Assembly: GCF_013004105.1 (NCBI RefSeq)
Contig: NZ_CP053085.1
Coordinates: forward strand, 3,162,001-3,226,000
Length of the DNA stretch: 64,000 nt
DNA from: Gemmatimonas groenlandica
Lineage (GTDB): Bacteria > Gemmatimonadota > Gemmatimonadetes > Gemmatimonadales > Gemmatimonadaceae
Reading direction: 5' to 3'
The position numbers and the translations under genes were made by a program. The notes beneath the pieces were generated by a model. The model was not told where the DNA came from, made no database searches, and saw only the letters and a list, made by a program, of their open reading frames with translations. Position 1 is the first letter of the stretch. Every line of letters starts with the position of its first letter. Shown in pieces: positions 27,826 through 60,884 of the stretch.

Positions 27826-29295
27826 ATGGCCACAATTCTGTACGTTGATGACGAGCCAAGCGTCGGGCTGATTCTCGAGGATTCGCTCGCCCAATCCGGC
27901 CATACGCCGATCGGCGCCCGAAGCGTGCCGGAAGCGCTCCAGATCCTGGAGCGGGGTGGCATCGACCTGATCATCTCCGACTATAGAATGCCGGGGCTGA
28001 CGGGGCTGGAGTTCATCCAGCTGCTCACGCGGGAGGGGTACGACATCCCCCTGATCATGCTCACGGGCCACGCCAGCATCGAGCACGCCGTCGCCAGCAT
28101 CAAGGCGGGGGCGATCGACTATATCACCAAGCCCGTCCGTCCTCAGCAGCTCGAGCTGGCGGTGGATCAAGCGCTCGAGTTCGTGCGCCTGCGGCGCGAG
28201 AACGAGACGCTCCGCAAGGAAGTGATGCAGTTCCGGAACGAACGGCAGATCATCGGCGACTCGCCGGCGATCCGCCGGATCCTGCAAACGGTGTCGATGG
28301 CCGCACCCACCCGCGCTACGGTGCTGCTGCAGGGCGAGTCGGGCACGGGTAAGGAACTCTTCGCCCGAGCCATTCACGACCAGAGCGAGCGCCGCGACAA
28401 GCCGTTCATCAAGCTCAACTGCGCCGCGCTCCCTGAGGGACTGGTCGAGTCGGCCCTGTTCGGCCACGAAAAGGGCGCCTTTACCGGCGCCATCAAACGG
28501 GTCGAGGGTGCGTTCGAGCGGGCCAATCGCGGCACGCTGTTGCTGGACGAAATCTCGGAGATGCGCCTCGATCTGCAGGCCAAGCTGCTCCGCGTGCTCC
28601 AGGAACAGGAGTTCGAGCGGGTCGGCGGCACGTCGCCCATCAAGGTGGATGTGCGCATCGTGGCCACCACCAATCGCGATCTGGCCTCCGAGGCCGACCA
28701 CGGGACGTTCCGGCAGGACTTGTACTATAGACTGTCCACGATCCCCGTGCTGATCCCACCGCTGCGCGATCGGCCCGAGGATATCGCGGTCCTGGCGCTT
28801 CGCTTCGCAATGCGCACGGCGGCCGAGCTTGGCAAGAAGATCGACGGCATCTCGCCCGACGCCCTCGAATCGATGCAGCAGTACCCGTGGCCTGGCAACA
28901 TCCGCGAATTACAGCATGTGATCGAGCGCGCCGTGATTCTCACGCCGGACCCGATGATCCACGCGCACTGCCTGGAAGGGACGCGGTTCGGCCTGGCCCA
29001 CTCACTCGGCTCGCCGTCAATTCGCACACGCTCGATCCCCACGCCCGGTACGGTTCCGGCGGTAACGACCGGTACCACCCCCGCCGCCGGGATGGCCATT
29101 GGCGGTGCGACCAACGGCAACATCGCCTTGGCGTCGCTGAATGTGGCCGATGCCGAACGAGTGCTTATTCAGCATGCGCTGGCAGCTGCCGATAATAACC
29201 GTACGAAGGCAGCCGAACTGCTGGGCATCAGCGTGCGCACTCTCCGCAACAAGCTCAACGGTCCCGGCAAGGACGCCGACGGCGACGAGGAGTAG
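27826..29295 (+). CDS. NtrC-family sigma54 activator (FlgR/FlbD/FleQ-like)
   Basis: The 489-aa product is the likely master regulator. A receiver domain has Asp52 in IISDYRMPGLTG and Lys102 in ITKPV. The AAA+ domain has Walker A GESGTGKE (170-177), the sigma54-contact loop GAFTGA (217-222), Walker B GTLLLDEI and WPGNIRELQHVIERA. After a long Pro/Gly/Thr linker a Fis-type HTH (RTKAAELLGISVRTLRNKLN) ends the protein. It is followed directly by the sigma54-controlled flgB operon. The small kinase at 3115 is a candidate phosphodonor. Confidence 0.93.
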   Translation: MATILYVDDEPSVGLILEDSLAQSGHTPIGARSVPEALQILERGGIDLIISDYRMPGLTGLEFIQLLTREGYDIPLIMLTGHASIEHAVASIKAGAIDYITKPVRPQQLELAVDQALEFVRLRRENETLRKEVMQFRNERQIIGDSPAIRRILQTVSMAAPTRATVLLQGESGTGKELFARAIHDQSERRDKPFIKLNCAALPEGLVESALFGHEKGAFTGAIKRVEGAFERANRGTLLLDEISEMRLDLQAKLLRVLQEQEFERVGGTSPIKVDVRIVATTNRDLASEADHGTFRQDLYYRLSTIPVLIPPLRDRPEDIAVLALRFAMRTAAELGKKIDGISPDALESMQQYPWPGNIRELQHVIERAVILTPDPMIHAHCLEGTRFGLAHSLGSPSIRTRSIPTPGTVPAVTTGTTPAAGMAIGGATNGNIALASLNVADAERVLIQHALAAADNNRTKAAELLGISVRTLRNKLNGPGKDADGDEE

Positions 29296-42679: not shown

Positions 42680-43678
42680 ATGAGCTCAGAAACTCTCAGC
42701 CAGCACGACATCGATCGCCTCCTCGGCGGCGGCTCGCGCCAGTCGCCCACGGCGGCGGCGGCGATGGACGTGCAGGTGTACGACTTCCGTCGTCCGCACC
42801 GCGTCTCGAAGGAACGCCTGCGCACGCTCGAAGCGATGTACGAGCGGCTGGTAAAGGGCCTGGAAGCGTGGCTCATCTCGCGTGTGCGCGGACAGATCGA
42901 AGTCCGGCTGCAAAGCGTCGAGCAGTTCTCTTTCGGTGAGTTCACGCTCTCGCTGCCGATGCCCTGCTCGTCGTTCATCTTCGACATCACGGGCACGGGG
43001 CAGAAGGGCGTCATCGACGTCGGCCCCGAGTTCAGCACCTACATCATCGATCGCCTGTTCGGTGGCGAGGGGACGGGCAGCGCGCTCACGCGTGCGCTTA
43101 CCCCCATCGAGCGAATGGCCGTCCGGTCGGTCGCCGACAAGGTCAGCGGTCTCCTTCAGGAGATCTGGCAGGACCATGTCTCGATGGACCTCAACATCAC
43201 GGGCTTCGAGTCGTCGCCCGAAATCCTGCAGGTCGTCAACCGCGAAGATCCCGTGCTCGTGGCGAACGTCGAGTTCACCACCGGCAACGTGAGCAGCCTG
43301 TTGCTCATCTGCCTGCCCTTCTCGGTGCTCGACAAGTTCTTCACGTCGAGCGGCCAGCAGCGCAATGCCTTGCTCACCACCAGCGATCAGGAACGCGAGA
43401 CCACACGTCAGCGCAGCGAGTCGGCGCTTCGCGCCACGAAGGTGCCGCTCACGGCGCGCCTTCCTGACTTCCAGCTCTCCATGCGTGACATCGCCGGCAT
43501 TACCGAAGGCACCATCATCCCCACCGGCATTCCGACCGACGCGCGCGTCATCGTGCGCGCCGGTACGCAGGAACGCTTCATCGGCCATCCCGGCCGCGTA
43601 AGCGGAAATCTCGCGGTGCGCATCCTCGATGCCGTACCCAGCGCCACGACCTCAGACTCACGGACGACCTCCGCATGA
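42680..43678 (+). CDS. fliM: FliM switch protein
   Basis: The 332-aa product has the N-terminal CheY-P binding peptide LSQHDIDRLLGGG, the middle CheC-like domain (YDFRRPHRVSKERLRTLEAM; FDITGTGQKGVIDVGPEF) and the C-terminal SpoA domain (VPLTARLPDFQLSMRDIAGI). It forms the C ring with FliG and FliN. It overlaps fliN by four bases. Confidence 0.97.
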   Translation: MSSETLSQHDIDRLLGGGSRQSPTAAAAMDVQVYDFRRPHRVSKERLRTLEAMYERLVKGLEAWLISRVRGQIEVRLQSVEQFSFGEFTLSLPMPCSSFIFDITGTGQKGVIDVGPEFSTYIIDRLFGGEGTGSALTRALTPIERMAVRSVADKVSGLLQEIWQDHVSMDLNITGFESSPEILQVVNREDPVLVANVEFTTGNVSSLLLICLPFSVLDKFFTSSGQQRNALLTTSDQERETTRQRSESALRATKVPLTARLPDFQLSMRDIAGITEGTIIPTGIPTDARVIVRAGTQERFIGHPGRVSGNLAVRILDAVPSATTSDSRTTSA

Positions 43679-44103
43679 ATCCCGCCGAAATCGACGCGCT
43701 CGTCGCCAGCGCGCAGGCCGCCAAGGCGGCCGGTCAGCCCATCTCGTCGCTCATGGACGAATCGGCTACGCCCTCCGCGGCGCCGGTACGCGCGCCGCAG
43801 CTCACCGAGTTCGAACAGACGATGATGAGCACCACGGAGGTGCCGATCGGCATGCTTCTGGATCTCACCCTCCCCGTCTCCATCGAGCTGGGTCGTACCT
43901 CGATGACGGTGCAGGAAATTCTGCGCCTCGGTCGTGGCTCCGTGATTCAGCTCGATCGCCTCGCCGGCGAGCCGATCGACATCTATGTCGGTGACCGCCG
44001 CTTCGCTGAAGGCGAAGTCGTGGTGCTCGGCGAACACTTCGGCGTGCGCATTACGCGCGTGCTGGCCAATCCGGCCGCCTCCAGCGCTGCCAACGCAGCC
44101 TGA
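43675..44103 (+). CDS. fliN: FliN C-ring protein
   Basis: The 142-aa product has a SpoA domain: IGMLLDLTLPVSIELGRTSM, QEILRLGRGSVIQLDRLAGE and HFGVRITRVL. An N-terminal tail of about 50 residues is Ala-rich. It is coupled to fliM by an ATGA overlap. Confidence 0.96.
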   Translation: MNPAEIDALVASAQAAKAAGQPISSLMDESATPSAAPVRAPQLTEFEQTMMSTTEVPIGMLLDLTLPVSIELGRTSMTVQEILRLGRGSVIQLDRLAGEPIDIYVGDRRFAEGEVVVLGEHFGVRITRVLANPAASSAANAA

Positions 44104-56273: not shown

Positions 56274-58358
56274 GTGACCAGCGCAGCTCTCCCTATTTCG
56301 CTCCCGGTCGAAGCGGGCAAGAAGGCAGAAGTCGCCCTCGCCCTCGCGGTCGTGCTGATTCTGGCACTGATCGTGGTACCGTTGCCGCCGATCATGCTGG
56401 ACCTGTTCCTCGCCGCCAGCATCGGTTTGTCGCTGGTCGTGCTACTGGTGTCGTTGTACACGACCGACCCGCTCGACTTCAGCAGCTTCCCCGCACTGCT
56501 GCTGCTGCTCACGCTCTTCCGCATCGGTCTCAACGTCTCGTCCACGCGCCTCATTCTCACGCAGGCGCATGCGGGCAAGGTGATCGAAGCGTTCGGCAAC
56601 TTCGTGATCGGCGGCAACTATGCCGTCGGCATCGTGATCTTCCTGCTCCTCATCGGCATCAACTTCATCGTCATCACGAAGGGTGCCGGCCGTATCGCTG
56701 AAGTCGGCGCGCGCTTCGCGCTCGACGCGATGCCCGGCAAGCAGATGGCCATCGACGCCGACCTCTCGGCCGGCCTCATCGACGAGAAGGAAGCCCGCAC
56801 CCGCCGCGACGTGATCTCGCGCACCGCCGACTTCTACGGCGCGATGGACGGTGCCTCGAAGTACGTAAAGGGCGACGCGATCCTCGGCATCCTCGTGGTC
56901 GCTGTCAACATCATCGGCGGCATCTTCATCGGCGTGATCCAAAAGGGCATGCCGCTCGAGAAGGCCGCCAGCACCTACACGCTCCTCACCGTTGGCGACG
57001 GCCTCGTGTCGCAGGTGCCCGCGCTGATCATCAGTACGGCCGCCGGTCTCATGGTCACCAGCGCCGCCGGTAACGAGCGCATGGGCACCGTGCTCAGCAA
57101 GCAGCTCGGTGCGCATCCGCGCGCCATGTGGATGGTGGCCGGTGTGCTGTCGTCGTTCGCGTTGATTCCCGGCCTGCCGATGTTCCCCTTCCTGGCCTTG
57201 GCCGCTGGCGCCGCGGCGCTCGCCAAGATGTCGGAGAAGGCCGTCAAGACGCGCAACGAACTCGCGCAGTTCTCCGCCGCACCGATCGAAGAGATCGAAG
57301 CGCCCGCGCCGAACGATCCGATGCGCGACCTGCTGCAGATCGATCCGATCGAACTCGAAGTCGGCTACTCGCTCATCCCGCTGGTGGACGAAAGCCAGGG
57401 TGGCGATCTCCTCGAACGCATCGGTCTCCTGCGCAAGCAGGCCGCGCTCGAACTCGGCATTCTCGTACCGGCCATTCGTATCCGCGACGACATCCGCCTG
57501 CCGGCCAACGAGTACGTGATCAAGCTGCGCGGCTCCGAAGTCGCGCGCGGCGAGGTGCTGCCGCGCTTCGTCATGGCGCTCAACACCGGTGGTGTGGTCG
57601 AAGAGATCCAGGGTATGGATACCGTCGACCCGTCGTTCGGCATGCCCGCCAAGTGGGTCTCGATGGGCCAGCGTTCCGACGCCGAGGCGCGCGGCTACGT
57701 GGTCGTCGAACCGACCACGGTGGTGGCCACGCATCTGTTGGAGACGCTCAAGAACAGCGCCGCCGATCTGCTCGGCCGTCAGGAAGTGCAGGAAATGGTC
57801 GAGACGCTCAAGAAGTCACACCCGGCGCTCGTCGAAGAGATCATCCCGAACAAGGTCTCGCTCAGCGTGCTGCATCGTGTGCTGCAGCGCCTCCTCCGCG
57901 AGCGTGTGCCCATTCGCGATCTCGTCACGATCCTCGAAGCGATCGGCGACGGCGCAGATGCCACGAAGGATCCCGAAGCGCTCACCGAAGTGGTGCGCAA
58001 GTCGCTCACCAACGTCATCGCCCGCCTGTTCGCCGACCAGACTGGTGTCGTTCGCGGCATCACCATCGGCGGCCGGCTCGAGTCGGCGCTGCTCGGTCTC
58101 TTCTCGCCGCGCTCCTCGAACGTCAACGCCCCGGTGCTCACACCGGAATCGCTGGCGGGCCTGCTGCGCGATCTCAACCAGATGGCCACCACCTTCTCGG
58201 TGGATGGCCGTCCGCTCCCGCTCATCACGCCGCCGTCGCTGCGTGTGGGCGTTCGCCGCCTGATCGAACCTGTGTTGCCCAGCCTCCCGGTGGTCTCGCT
58301 CGCCGAGCTCCCCGCGCAGATCACGCTGAGCAGTGTTGCCACCTGGGAGATGAACTGA
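56274..58358 (+). CDS. flhA: FlhA export-gate protein
   Basis: The 694-aa product has eight membrane segments in the first half and the FHIPEP signature LFRIGLNVSSTRLIL. The cytoplasmic linker region has GAMDGASKYVKGDAIL, and the C-terminal chaperone-binding domain has IRIRDDIRLPANEYVIKLRG and RQEVQEMVETLKKSHPALVE. The start is a GTG at 56274 with GAGGAA upstream. It overlaps flhF by one base. Confidence 0.97.
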   Translation: MTSAALPISLPVEAGKKAEVALALAVVLILALIVVPLPPIMLDLFLAASIGLSLVVLLVSLYTTDPLDFSSFPALLLLLTLFRIGLNVSSTRLILTQAHAGKVIEAFGNFVIGGNYAVGIVIFLLLIGINFIVITKGAGRIAEVGARFALDAMPGKQMAIDADLSAGLIDEKEARTRRDVISRTADFYGAMDGASKYVKGDAILGILVVAVNIIGGIFIGVIQKGMPLEKAASTYTLLTVGDGLVSQVPALIISTAAGLMVTSAAGNERMGTVLSKQLGAHPRAMWMVAGVLSSFALIPGLPMFPFLALAAGAAALAKMSEKAVKTRNELAQFSAAPIEEIEAPAPNDPMRDLLQIDPIELEVGYSLIPLVDESQGGDLLERIGLLRKQAALELGILVPAIRIRDDIRLPANEYVIKLRGSEVARGEVLPRFVMALNTGGVVEEIQGMDTVDPSFGMPAKWVSMGQRSDAEARGYVVVEPTTVVATHLLETLKNSAADLLGRQEVQEMVETLKKSHPALVEEIIPNKVSLSVLHRVLQRLLRERVPIRDLVTILEAIGDGADATKDPEALTEVVRKSLTNVIARLFADQTGVVRGITIGGRLESALLGLFSPRSSNVNAPVLTPESLAGLLRDLNQMATTFSVDGRPLPLITPPSLRVGVRRLIEPVLPSLPVVSLAELPAQITLSSVATWEMN

Positions 58359-59212
58359 TGCATTTCAATTCGGCAGAACGTTTCCGTGGGGTCGATCTCT
58401 CGCGCGTGGCCGATCGGGCCCGCCGCACGCTCGGCGATGATGTGATGATCCTCCACACGCGCACGGTGCGCGATGGTGGCGTGCCGATGGTCGAAGTGCT
58501 CGCGGCGCCGTCCACCGCGATCGATCGCGTGCGTGCGCGTCTCGAGCCTGCGCCGTTCCCGGTGAACATGCGGAAGGCCGACGGCCGTCCGTATTGCATC
58601 GCGCTGGTCGGTCCGACGGGCGCCGGCAAGACGACGACCGCAGCCAAGCTCGCGGTCCGTCGCGGGATGTTCGGCGCCGCGCGCCCGGGCCTGCTCACGA
58701 TCGACACGTATCGCGTGGGTGGCATGGAGCAGTTGGCCACCTACGCCGATCTCGCCGATGTGCCGTTCGAAGTCGTGTACGACGCGCGCGAAGTTGACGC
58801 GGCGATGAAGCGACTCTCGGGCACCTGCGACGTGATCATCATCGACACGCCGGGCCGTAGTCCGGCGTCGGCCGAGCTCACCGAGCGGTGGCGTTCACTG
58901 CTCGACGCGCTCGCTCCCGACGAGGTGCATCTCGTGATCCCCGCGTCGTTGCGCGCCGACCTCGCGGTCGACATCGGCCGCGCCTATCGCGCCACGCGCA
59001 ATCACTGCGGTGCGACGCACCTGATTCTCTCCAAGGTCGACGAAGTGCCGCGTGAATCGGGCATCAGCGATCTCGCGCTGTCACTCGAAATGCCCACGCG
59101 ATGGGTGACCGATGGACAGGATGTGCCCAGCGATCTCAAGCCCGGTGTGTCGCGGTTGCTGCGCGCCTGGGGACTCTCCGCCGATGCGGAGCCTGACTGG
59201 ATGCCCGCATGA
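58358..59212 (+). CDS. flhF: FlhF SRP-type GTPase
   Basis: The 284-aa product has the G-domain motifs VGPTGAGKTTTAAKLAV (P-loop 85-92), TIDTYRVGGMEQLATYADL, IIIDTPGRSPAS and ILSKVDEV. FlhF places the flagellum, often at a pole. It is shorter than usual FlhF because the N-terminal B/N region is only about 75 residues. It overlaps flhG by four bases. Confidence 0.93.
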   Translation: MHFNSAERFRGVDLSRVADRARRTLGDDVMILHTRTVRDGGVPMVEVLAAPSTAIDRVRARLEPAPFPVNMRKADGRPYCIALVGPTGAGKTTTAAKLAVRRGMFGAARPGLLTIDTYRVGGMEQLATYADLADVPFEVVYDAREVDAAMKRLSGTCDVIIIDTPGRSPASAELTERWRSLLDALAPDEVHLVIPASLRADLAVDIGRAYRATRNHCGATHLILSKVDEVPRESGISDLALSLEMPTRWVTDGQDVPSDLKPGVSRLLRAWGLSADAEPDWMPA

Positions 59213-60093
59213 GCGGCTATCAACTCATGTCGCCGCCGCGTGGAACGGCCAGTGTGTCGCAGGTCGACGCGCTGCTGGGCCGCGGCCCGCGCAACAGCAC
59301 GCAGCCGGGTGGCGCACCACGCGGCGCGACAACGCTGCTGGTCGCCAGTGGCCGCGGTGGTAGCGGTACCTCGCTGGTGTCGGCCCTACTCGCGGTTGCC
59401 GCCGCCGGTGATAGCCGTCGGGTGTTGCTCATCGACGCGGATGATTTTGTCGGACCGCTCGCGCTCACTCTGGGCGTGCCGGCGCGCGCCTCGTGGCAGG
59501 ATCTGCGCGGAGGCCGCCTCTCGCCGGCCGACGTGGCGACGCCGGTCAGCACCACGCTGACGCTGGTGGCCGGTGGCGCACCGCGACTTGGCTCCGACGG
59601 GCTCGCGCTCTCCGCCGCCGAACGTCGCGCCTGCATGCGTCGCCTCGGTGTTCTGGCAGATGGAATGGACCTCGTCGTCATCGACTGTGGGGCGCGCATC
59701 GACACGGTGCTCGCCGCGATCACGCCGCACGCCGACGAACGCCTGATCGCCGTCTCCGCCGGGAGTGACCCGGTGGGTCTGGCCTCGACCTACGCCCTCT
59801 GCAAGGCGGTGCACTCCCGTCACGGTGCCCTTCCGATGGACGTACTCGTCAATCGACATGAAGGGAGCGAAGCCGCTCGTTGTTTCGACGCCATCGACGC
59901 CGGTGCCCGTCAGTTTCTCGGAATTTCTCTGCGCCTCGCCGGCGCCGTTCCAGCTGATCCGACGCTCGACGCCGCGCTGCGCGCGGGAATGCCTTTTCCG
60001 CATGCGGCCGCCGGTTCTCCGGCTGCGATAGCTGCTCACGAAGTCGTGATGCGCGCGCTGGCTACTGCTTCACTCTCCCGTTCTGGTACTTGA
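59209..60093 (+). CDS. flhG: FlhG/FleN MinD-like protein with degenerate Walker A
   Basis: The 294-aa product belongs to the ParA/MinD group by LLVASGRGGSGTSLVSALLA, LLIDADDFVGPLAL and LVVIDCGARIDTVLA. An N-terminal tail (VSQVDALLGRG) resembles the DQAxxLR motif that stimulates FlhF. The deviant Walker A, normally KGGxGKT, reads R49-G-G-S-G-T54-S, so both lysines are missing. FlhG limits flagellar number. ATP binding or hydrolysis may be lost. It precedes fliA. Confidence 0.85.
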   Translation: MSGYQLMSPPRGTASVSQVDALLGRGPRNSTQPGGAPRGATTLLVASGRGGSGTSLVSALLAVAAAGDSRRVLLIDADDFVGPLALTLGVPARASWQDLRGGRLSPADVATPVSTTLTLVAGGAPRLGSDGLALSAAERRACMRRLGVLADGMDLVVIDCGARIDTVLAAITPHADERLIAVSAGSDPVGLASTYALCKAVHSRHGALPMDVLVNRHEGSEAARCFDAIDAGARQFLGISLRLAGAVPADPTLDAALRAGMPFPHAAAGSPAAIAAHEVVMRALATASLSRSGT

Positions 60094-60128
60094 CCGTGAC
60101 TCTCGTTTCTACGCAAGGCTCTGCCTCC

Positions 60129-60884
60129 ATGCACACCAAGCTTTGGCAGTCATACCAGGCCGGCAACCAGACGGCACGCGATCGTCTCCTCGAGGAGCAT
60201 CTCGGACTCGTGCATCACGTCGCCCGTCAGGTCTCACGCACCCTCGCCGTGCGTGCCGACTTCGATGAGCTGGTCAGCGCCGGGACGATCGGCCTGATGA
60301 CGGCGCTCGAAGGCTTCGACTTCTCGCGCGGTCTCGCCTTCAGCACGTTCGCCGCTCCCCGCATCCGCGGCGCGATTCTCGACGAGCTCCGCAAGCAAGA
60401 TCATGTGCCGCGCTCGATCCGTCGCAAGACACGTGAAATCTCGGCCGGCCGCGAATCGTTTCAGCGCACGCATGGCCGCGCTCCTGACGACAAAGAACTC
60501 GCGCAGCATCTGAACGTCGACATGGACACGCTCTGGCGCTGGCAGGCCGACGTGGAAGGCGCACATCACATCCCGCTCGACCGCGCGCCCGGCGAGCGTG
60601 AGAACACGGCACCGGTGCCGGCCGAAACGCTCAGCAGCGACGGCGACAACGATGTCGAGGACAGCCTCACGCACGAACAGGAAGTGTCGCACCTCAAGGA
60701 TGCGATCATGCACCTCAAGGAGCAGGAGCGCGTGGTGTTGTCGCTCTACTACTTCGAGGAGCTCAAGCTGCACGAGATCGCGAAGGTGTTGGAACTCACC
60801 GAGTCGCGCGTTTCGCAGATCCGCTCGAAGGCGCTCAGCAAGCTGCGCGTCGAACTTACCCCGCTCCGCGAGAACGTGGCATGA
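60129..60884 (+). CDS. fliA: FliA/WhiG-type sigma28 factor
   Basis: The roughly 251-aa product has region 2 (HLGLVHHVARQVSRTLAVRA, DELVSAGTIGLMTALEGFDF, FSTFAAPRIRGAILDELRKQ), region 3 (ISAGRESFQRTHGRAPDDKE) and region 4 (VVLSLYYFEELKLHEIAKVL, ESRVSQIRSKALSKLR). ATG 60129 is used; a TTG and a GTG lie upstream inside the flhG overlap. It would read the six sigma28-like sites in the window and is inhibited by FlgM at 11346. Confidence 0.95.
   Translation: MHTKLWQSYQAGNQTARDRLLEEHLGLVHHVARQVSRTLAVRADFDELVSAGTIGLMTALEGFDFSRGLAFSTFAAPRIRGAILDELRKQDHVPRSIRRKTREISAGRESFQRTHGRAPDDKELAQHLNVDMDTLWRWQADVEGAHHIPLDRAPGERENTAPVPAETLSSDGDNDVEDSLTHEQEVSHLKDAIMHLKEQERVVLSLYYFEELKLHEIAKVLELTESRVSQIRSKALSKLRVELTPLRENVA

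Follow-up and report, generated by a model that had tools for sequence, protein, structure and literature searches.

In models of how cells control the number of their flagella, FlhG acts as a MinD-like switch driven by ATP. In the flagellar locus described here, from the soil/freshwater bacterium Gemmatimonas groenlandica, the protein in the place of FlhG has lost both lysines of its deviant Walker A motif, which raises the question of whether it is still an FlhG and, if so, whether it could serve the flagellum without an ATP cycle. The gene lies in the window, the stretch of 64,000 nucleotides that was analysed, in the order flhA-flhF-flhG-fliA with overlapping ends, and the same synteny is seen in relatives:

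56274..58358, + strand: flhA (ORF list; synteny in relatives)
58358..59212, + strand: flhF, 284 aa, G1-G4 motifs intact
59209..60093, + strand: flhG, 294 aa (ORF list and translation), with K199 as sole lysine
60090..60884, + strand: fliA (sigma-28), 5' end overlapping the end of flhG

The locus and the ATP site of FlhG

The order flhF-flhG-fliA is that of flhF-fleN-fliA in P. aeruginosa. A profile built from 29 family sequences, all of them without the P-loop lysine, matched FleN (5j1j, 3.9e-41) and Geobacillus FlhG (4rz2, 1.7e-40) best, with MinD (1.4e-19) and the ParA-family ATPase 3ea0 (4e-13), which we take to be TadZ-like, far behind. A Foldseek search likewise placed FleN and FlhG at the top; it used an AlphaFold model from 17 close sequences that, at a mean pLDDT of 55, is too poor for ATP-site geometry. 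Judged by profile and operon place, the protein at 59209-60093 is a true FlhG/FleN. As the sister family f2 keeps KGGxGK(T/S) at the same locus, RGGSGTS marks a family variant and not a non-member. The flagellar cluster of the window also contains an NtrC-type sigma-54 activator of 489 aa (27826-29295; receiver and AAA+ domain), a possible transcriptional partner.

The flhG ORF contains LLVASGRGGSGTSLVSA around the deviant Walker A motif, and four parts of the ATP site can be placed in it:

59353..59373, + strand: deviant Walker A R49-G-G-S-G-T54-S55 (canonical KGGxGKT/S), both lysines absent
59434..59442, + strand: D76-A-D78, Walker A' / catalytic Asp, kept throughout the genus Gemmatimonas
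59683..59697, + strand: switch II D159-C-G-A-R163, with Arg in place of the Gly of DxxAG
59785..59787, + strand: S193, equivalent of V. alginolyticus FlhG D171 and MinD D152 by profile alignment

The first-pass annotation had read both Walker A lysines as missing (RGGSGTS; R49 and T54), and this is borne out by the codons, CGC at 59353-59355 and ACC at 59368-59370, as well as by alignment across the clade. Still present are Gly50, Gly51, Gly53, Ser55, Asp76, Asp78 and Asp159. The protein has 25 arginines and a single lysine, K199, and the change from Lys to Arg at the signature site may in part reflect this high-GC, lysine-poor make-up.

Reach and history of the lysine loss

None of the 60 FlhGs of the family (f1) with a readable P-loop has the P-loop lysine, the site of T54 being T, A or S. 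Four rows with a K filed under this family (L089-L092) are ParA-type proteins without flagellar neighbours and were left out of the FlhG counts. Every Gemmatimonas species with a readable P-loop carries RGG(S/A)G(T/A/S)(S/T), and the lysine is also absent from 11 FlhGs of the class families f4, f5 and f6. KGGxGKS/T is kept in 12 sequences, namely 11 of 11 in f2, which belongs to the same order, and the outlying f9.

In a tree of 71 sequences from Gemmatimonadota, 57 lysine-free and 14 lysine-bearing, the lysine-free ones form one clade (SH-aLRT 98), so that the P-loop lysine needs only one change. The switch-II glycine, present in 14 of 14 lysine-bearing FlhGs and in 0 of 57 members of the lysine-free clade, also needs a single change, and the Asp equivalent to D171 of Vibrio and Geobacillus is found in 13 of the 14 lysine-bearing rows but in none of the 57 others (Ala, Ser, Gly or Thr). 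The signature (first) lysine, in contrast, changed seven times, mostly to Arg; its site is always Arg in Gemmatimonas, and Arg occurs in the sister genus g10 as well. Thus both lysines are gone, as first annotated, but through separate events, the P-loop lysine once and early, the signature lysine later and repeatedly. The tree places a single loss of the P-loop lysine, along with that of the switch-II glycine and the D171 equivalent, in the common ancestor of four or more families.

A tblastn search on plasmids returned two FlhGs, both with intact motifs, and a literature search on FlhG in Gemmatimonadota found nothing relevant. The lysine-free FlhG of Gemmatimonadota is a new variant of a known protein, as surveyed within this phylum. 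One record among the relatives, L045 (CALQGY020000005.1), is titled Candidatus Kuenenia stuttgartiensis and carries a Gemmatimonas-type flagellar locus with an FlhG of 71% identity; the title looks misassigned. The f2 FlhGs (L141-L152) have KGGVGKS and DQAxxLR intact, but 8 of the 11 carry A, S or E at position 78, which suggests that those without the catalytic Asp bind ATP without hydrolysing it.

The FlhF side and the putative C-ring docking surface

Upstream of the P-loop, the protein keeps a recognizable counterpart of the helix that acts on FlhF:

59257..59277, + strand: SQVDALL, residues 17-23, counterpart of the DQAxxLR helix, Q18 kept

The DQAxxLR helix stimulates the FlhF GTPase via its Gln (review PMC12826062; motif role also in PMC12327844). 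Compared with it, SQVDALL has Ser for the first Asp and Leu for the last Arg but retains the Gln; relatives read SQADALR, SQLDGLR and similar, and f2 still has DQAxxLR. The P-loop of the partner FlhF (58358-59212) had been noted as intact, and it is: the G1 motif GPTGAGKT is kept within the stretch GPTGAGKTTTAAKL. FlhF matches TIGR03499 at profile positions 4-55 (part of the N-terminal B domain) and 194-286 (G domain), and neither the linker nor an SRP54-type N domain was detected in this match. With only 284 aa, the partner of FlhG therefore seems to be reduced too.

Most flhF-bearing genomes have the helix Gln (43 of 57 rows of the tree), and it is absent from all nine genomes without flhF, where genome-wide searches for FlhF gave only Ffh- and FtsY-level matches. 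Presence of the helix where flhF is kept and its absence where flhF is lost suggest that the two are linked. As there were only about three independent FlhF losses, a sign test was uninformative and the correlation was dropped as independent statistics. Within the family, D78 accompanies the N-terminal helix in 26 of 28 FlhGs and is found in 0 of 12 without it.

At the loci L061, L062, L065, L076, L081 and L159, from several genera, flhF is gone from between flhA and flhG. Their FlhGs begin just before the P-loop, without the FlhF-stimulating helix, and that of L159 has AGTPQLGT at the place of the P-loop. Genus g8 (L085, L088, L162, L163) has a gene for an FlhG of some 190 residues, located between flhA and fliA, and no flhF in the genome; most of the P-loop (nucleotide-binding) half is missing from this protein, and the docking half is kept.

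Geobacillus FlhG docks to the C-ring via K177, R207 and F215 (FliY docking; PMC12327844). For the mapping, the numbering of the 4rz2 chain was shifted by 8, which places K, R and F exactly at K177, R207 and F215. The corresponding features of the window, with the candidate docking partners, are:

59803..59805, + strand: K199, equivalent of Geobacillus FlhG K177, invariant (57/57)
59914..59916, + strand: F236, equivalent of Geobacillus FlhG F215, F or W in 56/57
42680..43678, + strand: fliM, N-terminus LSQHDIDRLLGGG, EIDALL-type C-ring peptide
43675..44103, + strand: fliN, N-terminus MNPAEIDALVAS, EIDAL peptide, as reported for FliY

Two of the three docking residues are thus kept; the equivalent of R207 is A228, and the docking Arg is not conserved. 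FliN begins with MNPAEIDALV, so that its EIDAL peptide comes on top of the usual one of FliM. The FliM EID-type peptide occurs in most relatives and is more widely spread than that of FliN, which we rejected as a clade-wide feature as it is present in Gemmatimonas and some genera and missing in g8, g32, f2 and f5. After the domain, the window FlhG has a tail of 9 residues, compared with 25-30 in FleN and Acetoanaerobium FlhG, which leaves no room for a C-terminal amphipathic membrane-targeting helix. Because certain relatives that keep the lysine have short tails too, absence of this helix was rejected as a clade-specific trait.

A proposed ATP-independent adaptor, a possible rewired switch and known systems

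The reading we prefer, although we give it only an even chance, is that of a true FlhG with a degenerate MinD-type nucleotide switch that acts as an ATP-independent adaptor. FlhG would no longer run the ATP-driven cycle between monomer and dimer, cytoplasm and membrane, and would instead be permanently available. Its N-terminal helix (Q18) would stimulate the FlhF GTPase, and the surface around K199 and F236 would bind the N-terminal EID-type peptide of FliM, of FliN or of both, so that assembly of the C-ring would be tied to inactivation of FlhF without ATP. Lineages that later deleted flhF would have done without the N-terminal helix and retained the docking half, the 190-residue form of g8 being the extreme. 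Such an adaptor fits with the nucleotide-independent C-ring docking of FlhG in Geobacillus and Shewanella (PMC7226244) and with the binding of FleQ by FleN K19A, which is unable to dimerise (PMC10723142). In V. alginolyticus, the D171A variant of FlhG is hyperactive and strongly polar (PMC7226244), and Ala or Ser at this site suggests, by analogy, a locked active state. A non-ATPase role, proposed in the first-pass annotation for this one protein, is plausible, since Gly163 and the D171 equivalent were lost on one branch and the tail has no room for a membrane helix, as is a locked one; the trait, however, is ancient and belongs to a clade of four families and not to one genome. Somewhat more tentatively, the whole clade might run its flagella with a nucleotide-free FlhG, a pseudo-ATPase locked in the active state, with ATP cycling dispensable. 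As cells of G. phototrophica bear a single, polar flagellum (PMC9862903), control of flagellar number seems to operate even though the lysines are gone. In Vibrio, FlhG with a mutated Walker A motif loses ATPase activity, polar localisation and number control (PMC7226244), so that an ATP-free FlhG would need other adaptations. Against an adaptor of this kind, GGxG, S55, D76, D78 and D159 are kept in all Gemmatimonas, as if contact with Mg or nucleotide still mattered, and D78 goes with the helix, as would be expected if the FlhF side still made use of some nucleotide chemistry.

These retained residues are what residual ATP binding would predict, and it is a real rival to the adaptor. Here, Arg49 would replace the signature lysine and another basic residue, R163 of switch II or R139/R145 of the helix before it, the P-loop lysine, and FlhG would still bind ATP, perhaps hydrolyse it slowly, and still dimerise. 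We consider such a rewired, working switch possible but somewhat unlikely. The retention of GGxGxS, D76, D78 and D159 in the genus speaks for it, as do the recurrent change from Lys to Arg at the signature site and the company D78 keeps with the N-terminal helix inside the family. It is also favoured by Arg or Lys at R145 in all 54 aligned members of the clade and by Arg at R163 in 37 of 57, the residue there being Gly in lysine-bearing FlhGs. There are precedents as well. E. rectale TadZ, which lacks both lysines, is cited as hydrolysing ATP, and single K-to-A mutants of either lysine in mycobacterial MSMEG_3743 kept ATPase activity (PMC10482377). In TadZ, the P-loop lysine is reportedly replaced by one from an adjacent helix. 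CpaE has KGGVGSS with the signature lysine changed to Arg or His (PMC8513845), and McdA does without the signature lysine (PMC6328274). The earlier statement that both lysines are needed for ATP binding, dimer formation and hydrolysis was too strong, as it fails for the superfamily as a whole. However, R139 and R145 also occur in most lysine-bearing f2 FlhGs and are therefore not specific replacements, the protein has no lysine besides K199, the switch-II Gly was lost too, several genera no longer have D78, and little of the P-loop half is left in g8.

It appears improbable that the clade is losing its FlhG and that the protein survives as a relic of little function only through the structure of the operon. 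Further decay in several lineages (AGTPQLGT, SAPRRGSGVS, the 190-aa forms) favours this view, but dN/dS between the window gene and nine relatives is 0.06-0.29, close to that of flhF and fliA, which by this measure places flhG under purifying selection. Moreover, K199 and A196 are invariant over 57 sequences, and none of the family matches read as FlhG has a stop or frameshift.

Still less credible is a non-orthologous replacement, in which FlhG beside flhF would have given way to a CpaE/TadZ/Ssd-type protein. Such proteins include known cases of Walker A motifs without lysine, KGGVGTS resembles the KGGVGSS of CpaE, and one of the weak family matches is to TIGR03815 (CpaE-like Ssd). Nonetheless, the profile gave about 4e-41 for FleN and 2e-40 for FlhG as against 4e-13 for 3ea0, and the DQAxxLR counterpart together with the intact f2 FlhGs at the same locus ties the protein to FlhG. 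TadZ/CpaE membership was rejected on this far weaker match and on the location in a flagellar operon instead of a pilus locus.

Finally, an artefact, whether a sequencing error or a second FlhG supplying the ATPase function, is refuted: nothing was found in its favour, error or chance is excluded by a motif present in every Gemmatimonas species and a P-loop lysine present in no family member (intact relatives had been named as a possible sign of error or recent loss), the same substitution recurs across independent genomes and MAGs, and the genome-wide search for another flhG copy called for earlier found none in the complete, single-contig genome of 5.18 Mb, whose other MinD-family matches, as read, are ParA/Soj-, Mrp- and Wzc-type proteins, all with intact P-loops.

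Here, such Walker A changes arose once in nature and the protein was retained, and one species of the group has been seen with a single polar flagellum. If FlhG is ATP-independent here, its FlhF-stimulating and C-ring functions have been separated from the ATP cycle; if ATP is still used, this would be a second MinD-family case of replaceable hallmark lysines. Both G. phototrophica and G. groenlandica can be cultured (PMC9862903), so the question is open to experiment.

Among known systems, Gemmatimonas FlhG shares with FlhG/FleN/YlxH (4rz2, 5j1j) its place in flhF-flhG-fliA, a profile match of about 1e-40, the helix Gln, the docking Lys and Phe, the Walker A' Asp and the Walker B Asp. Unlike these proteins, it lacks the P-loop Lys, the switch-II Gly and the D171 equivalent, has Arg for the signature Lys, and ends 9 residues past the domain without a C-terminal membrane helix. 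TadZ/CpaE proteins (TadZ of E. rectale; Liberibacter CpaE, KGGVGSS) are MinD-family members that have likewise lost one or both lysines naturally (PMC10482377, PMC8513845), but they are pilus proteins with much weaker profile similarity and no FlhF-stimulating helix. McdA of Synechococcus elongatus also has a deviant Walker A motif without the signature lysine (PMC6328274), but it still has the P-loop lysine, hydrolyses ATP fast and serves to position carboxysomes. Of two V. alginolyticus FlhG variants, K31A removes a Walker A lysine and D171A alters the Asp also missing in Gemmatimonas FlhG (PMC7226244). Whereas these are laboratory mutants with opposite single effects, Gemmatimonas FlhG combines both kinds of change naturally.
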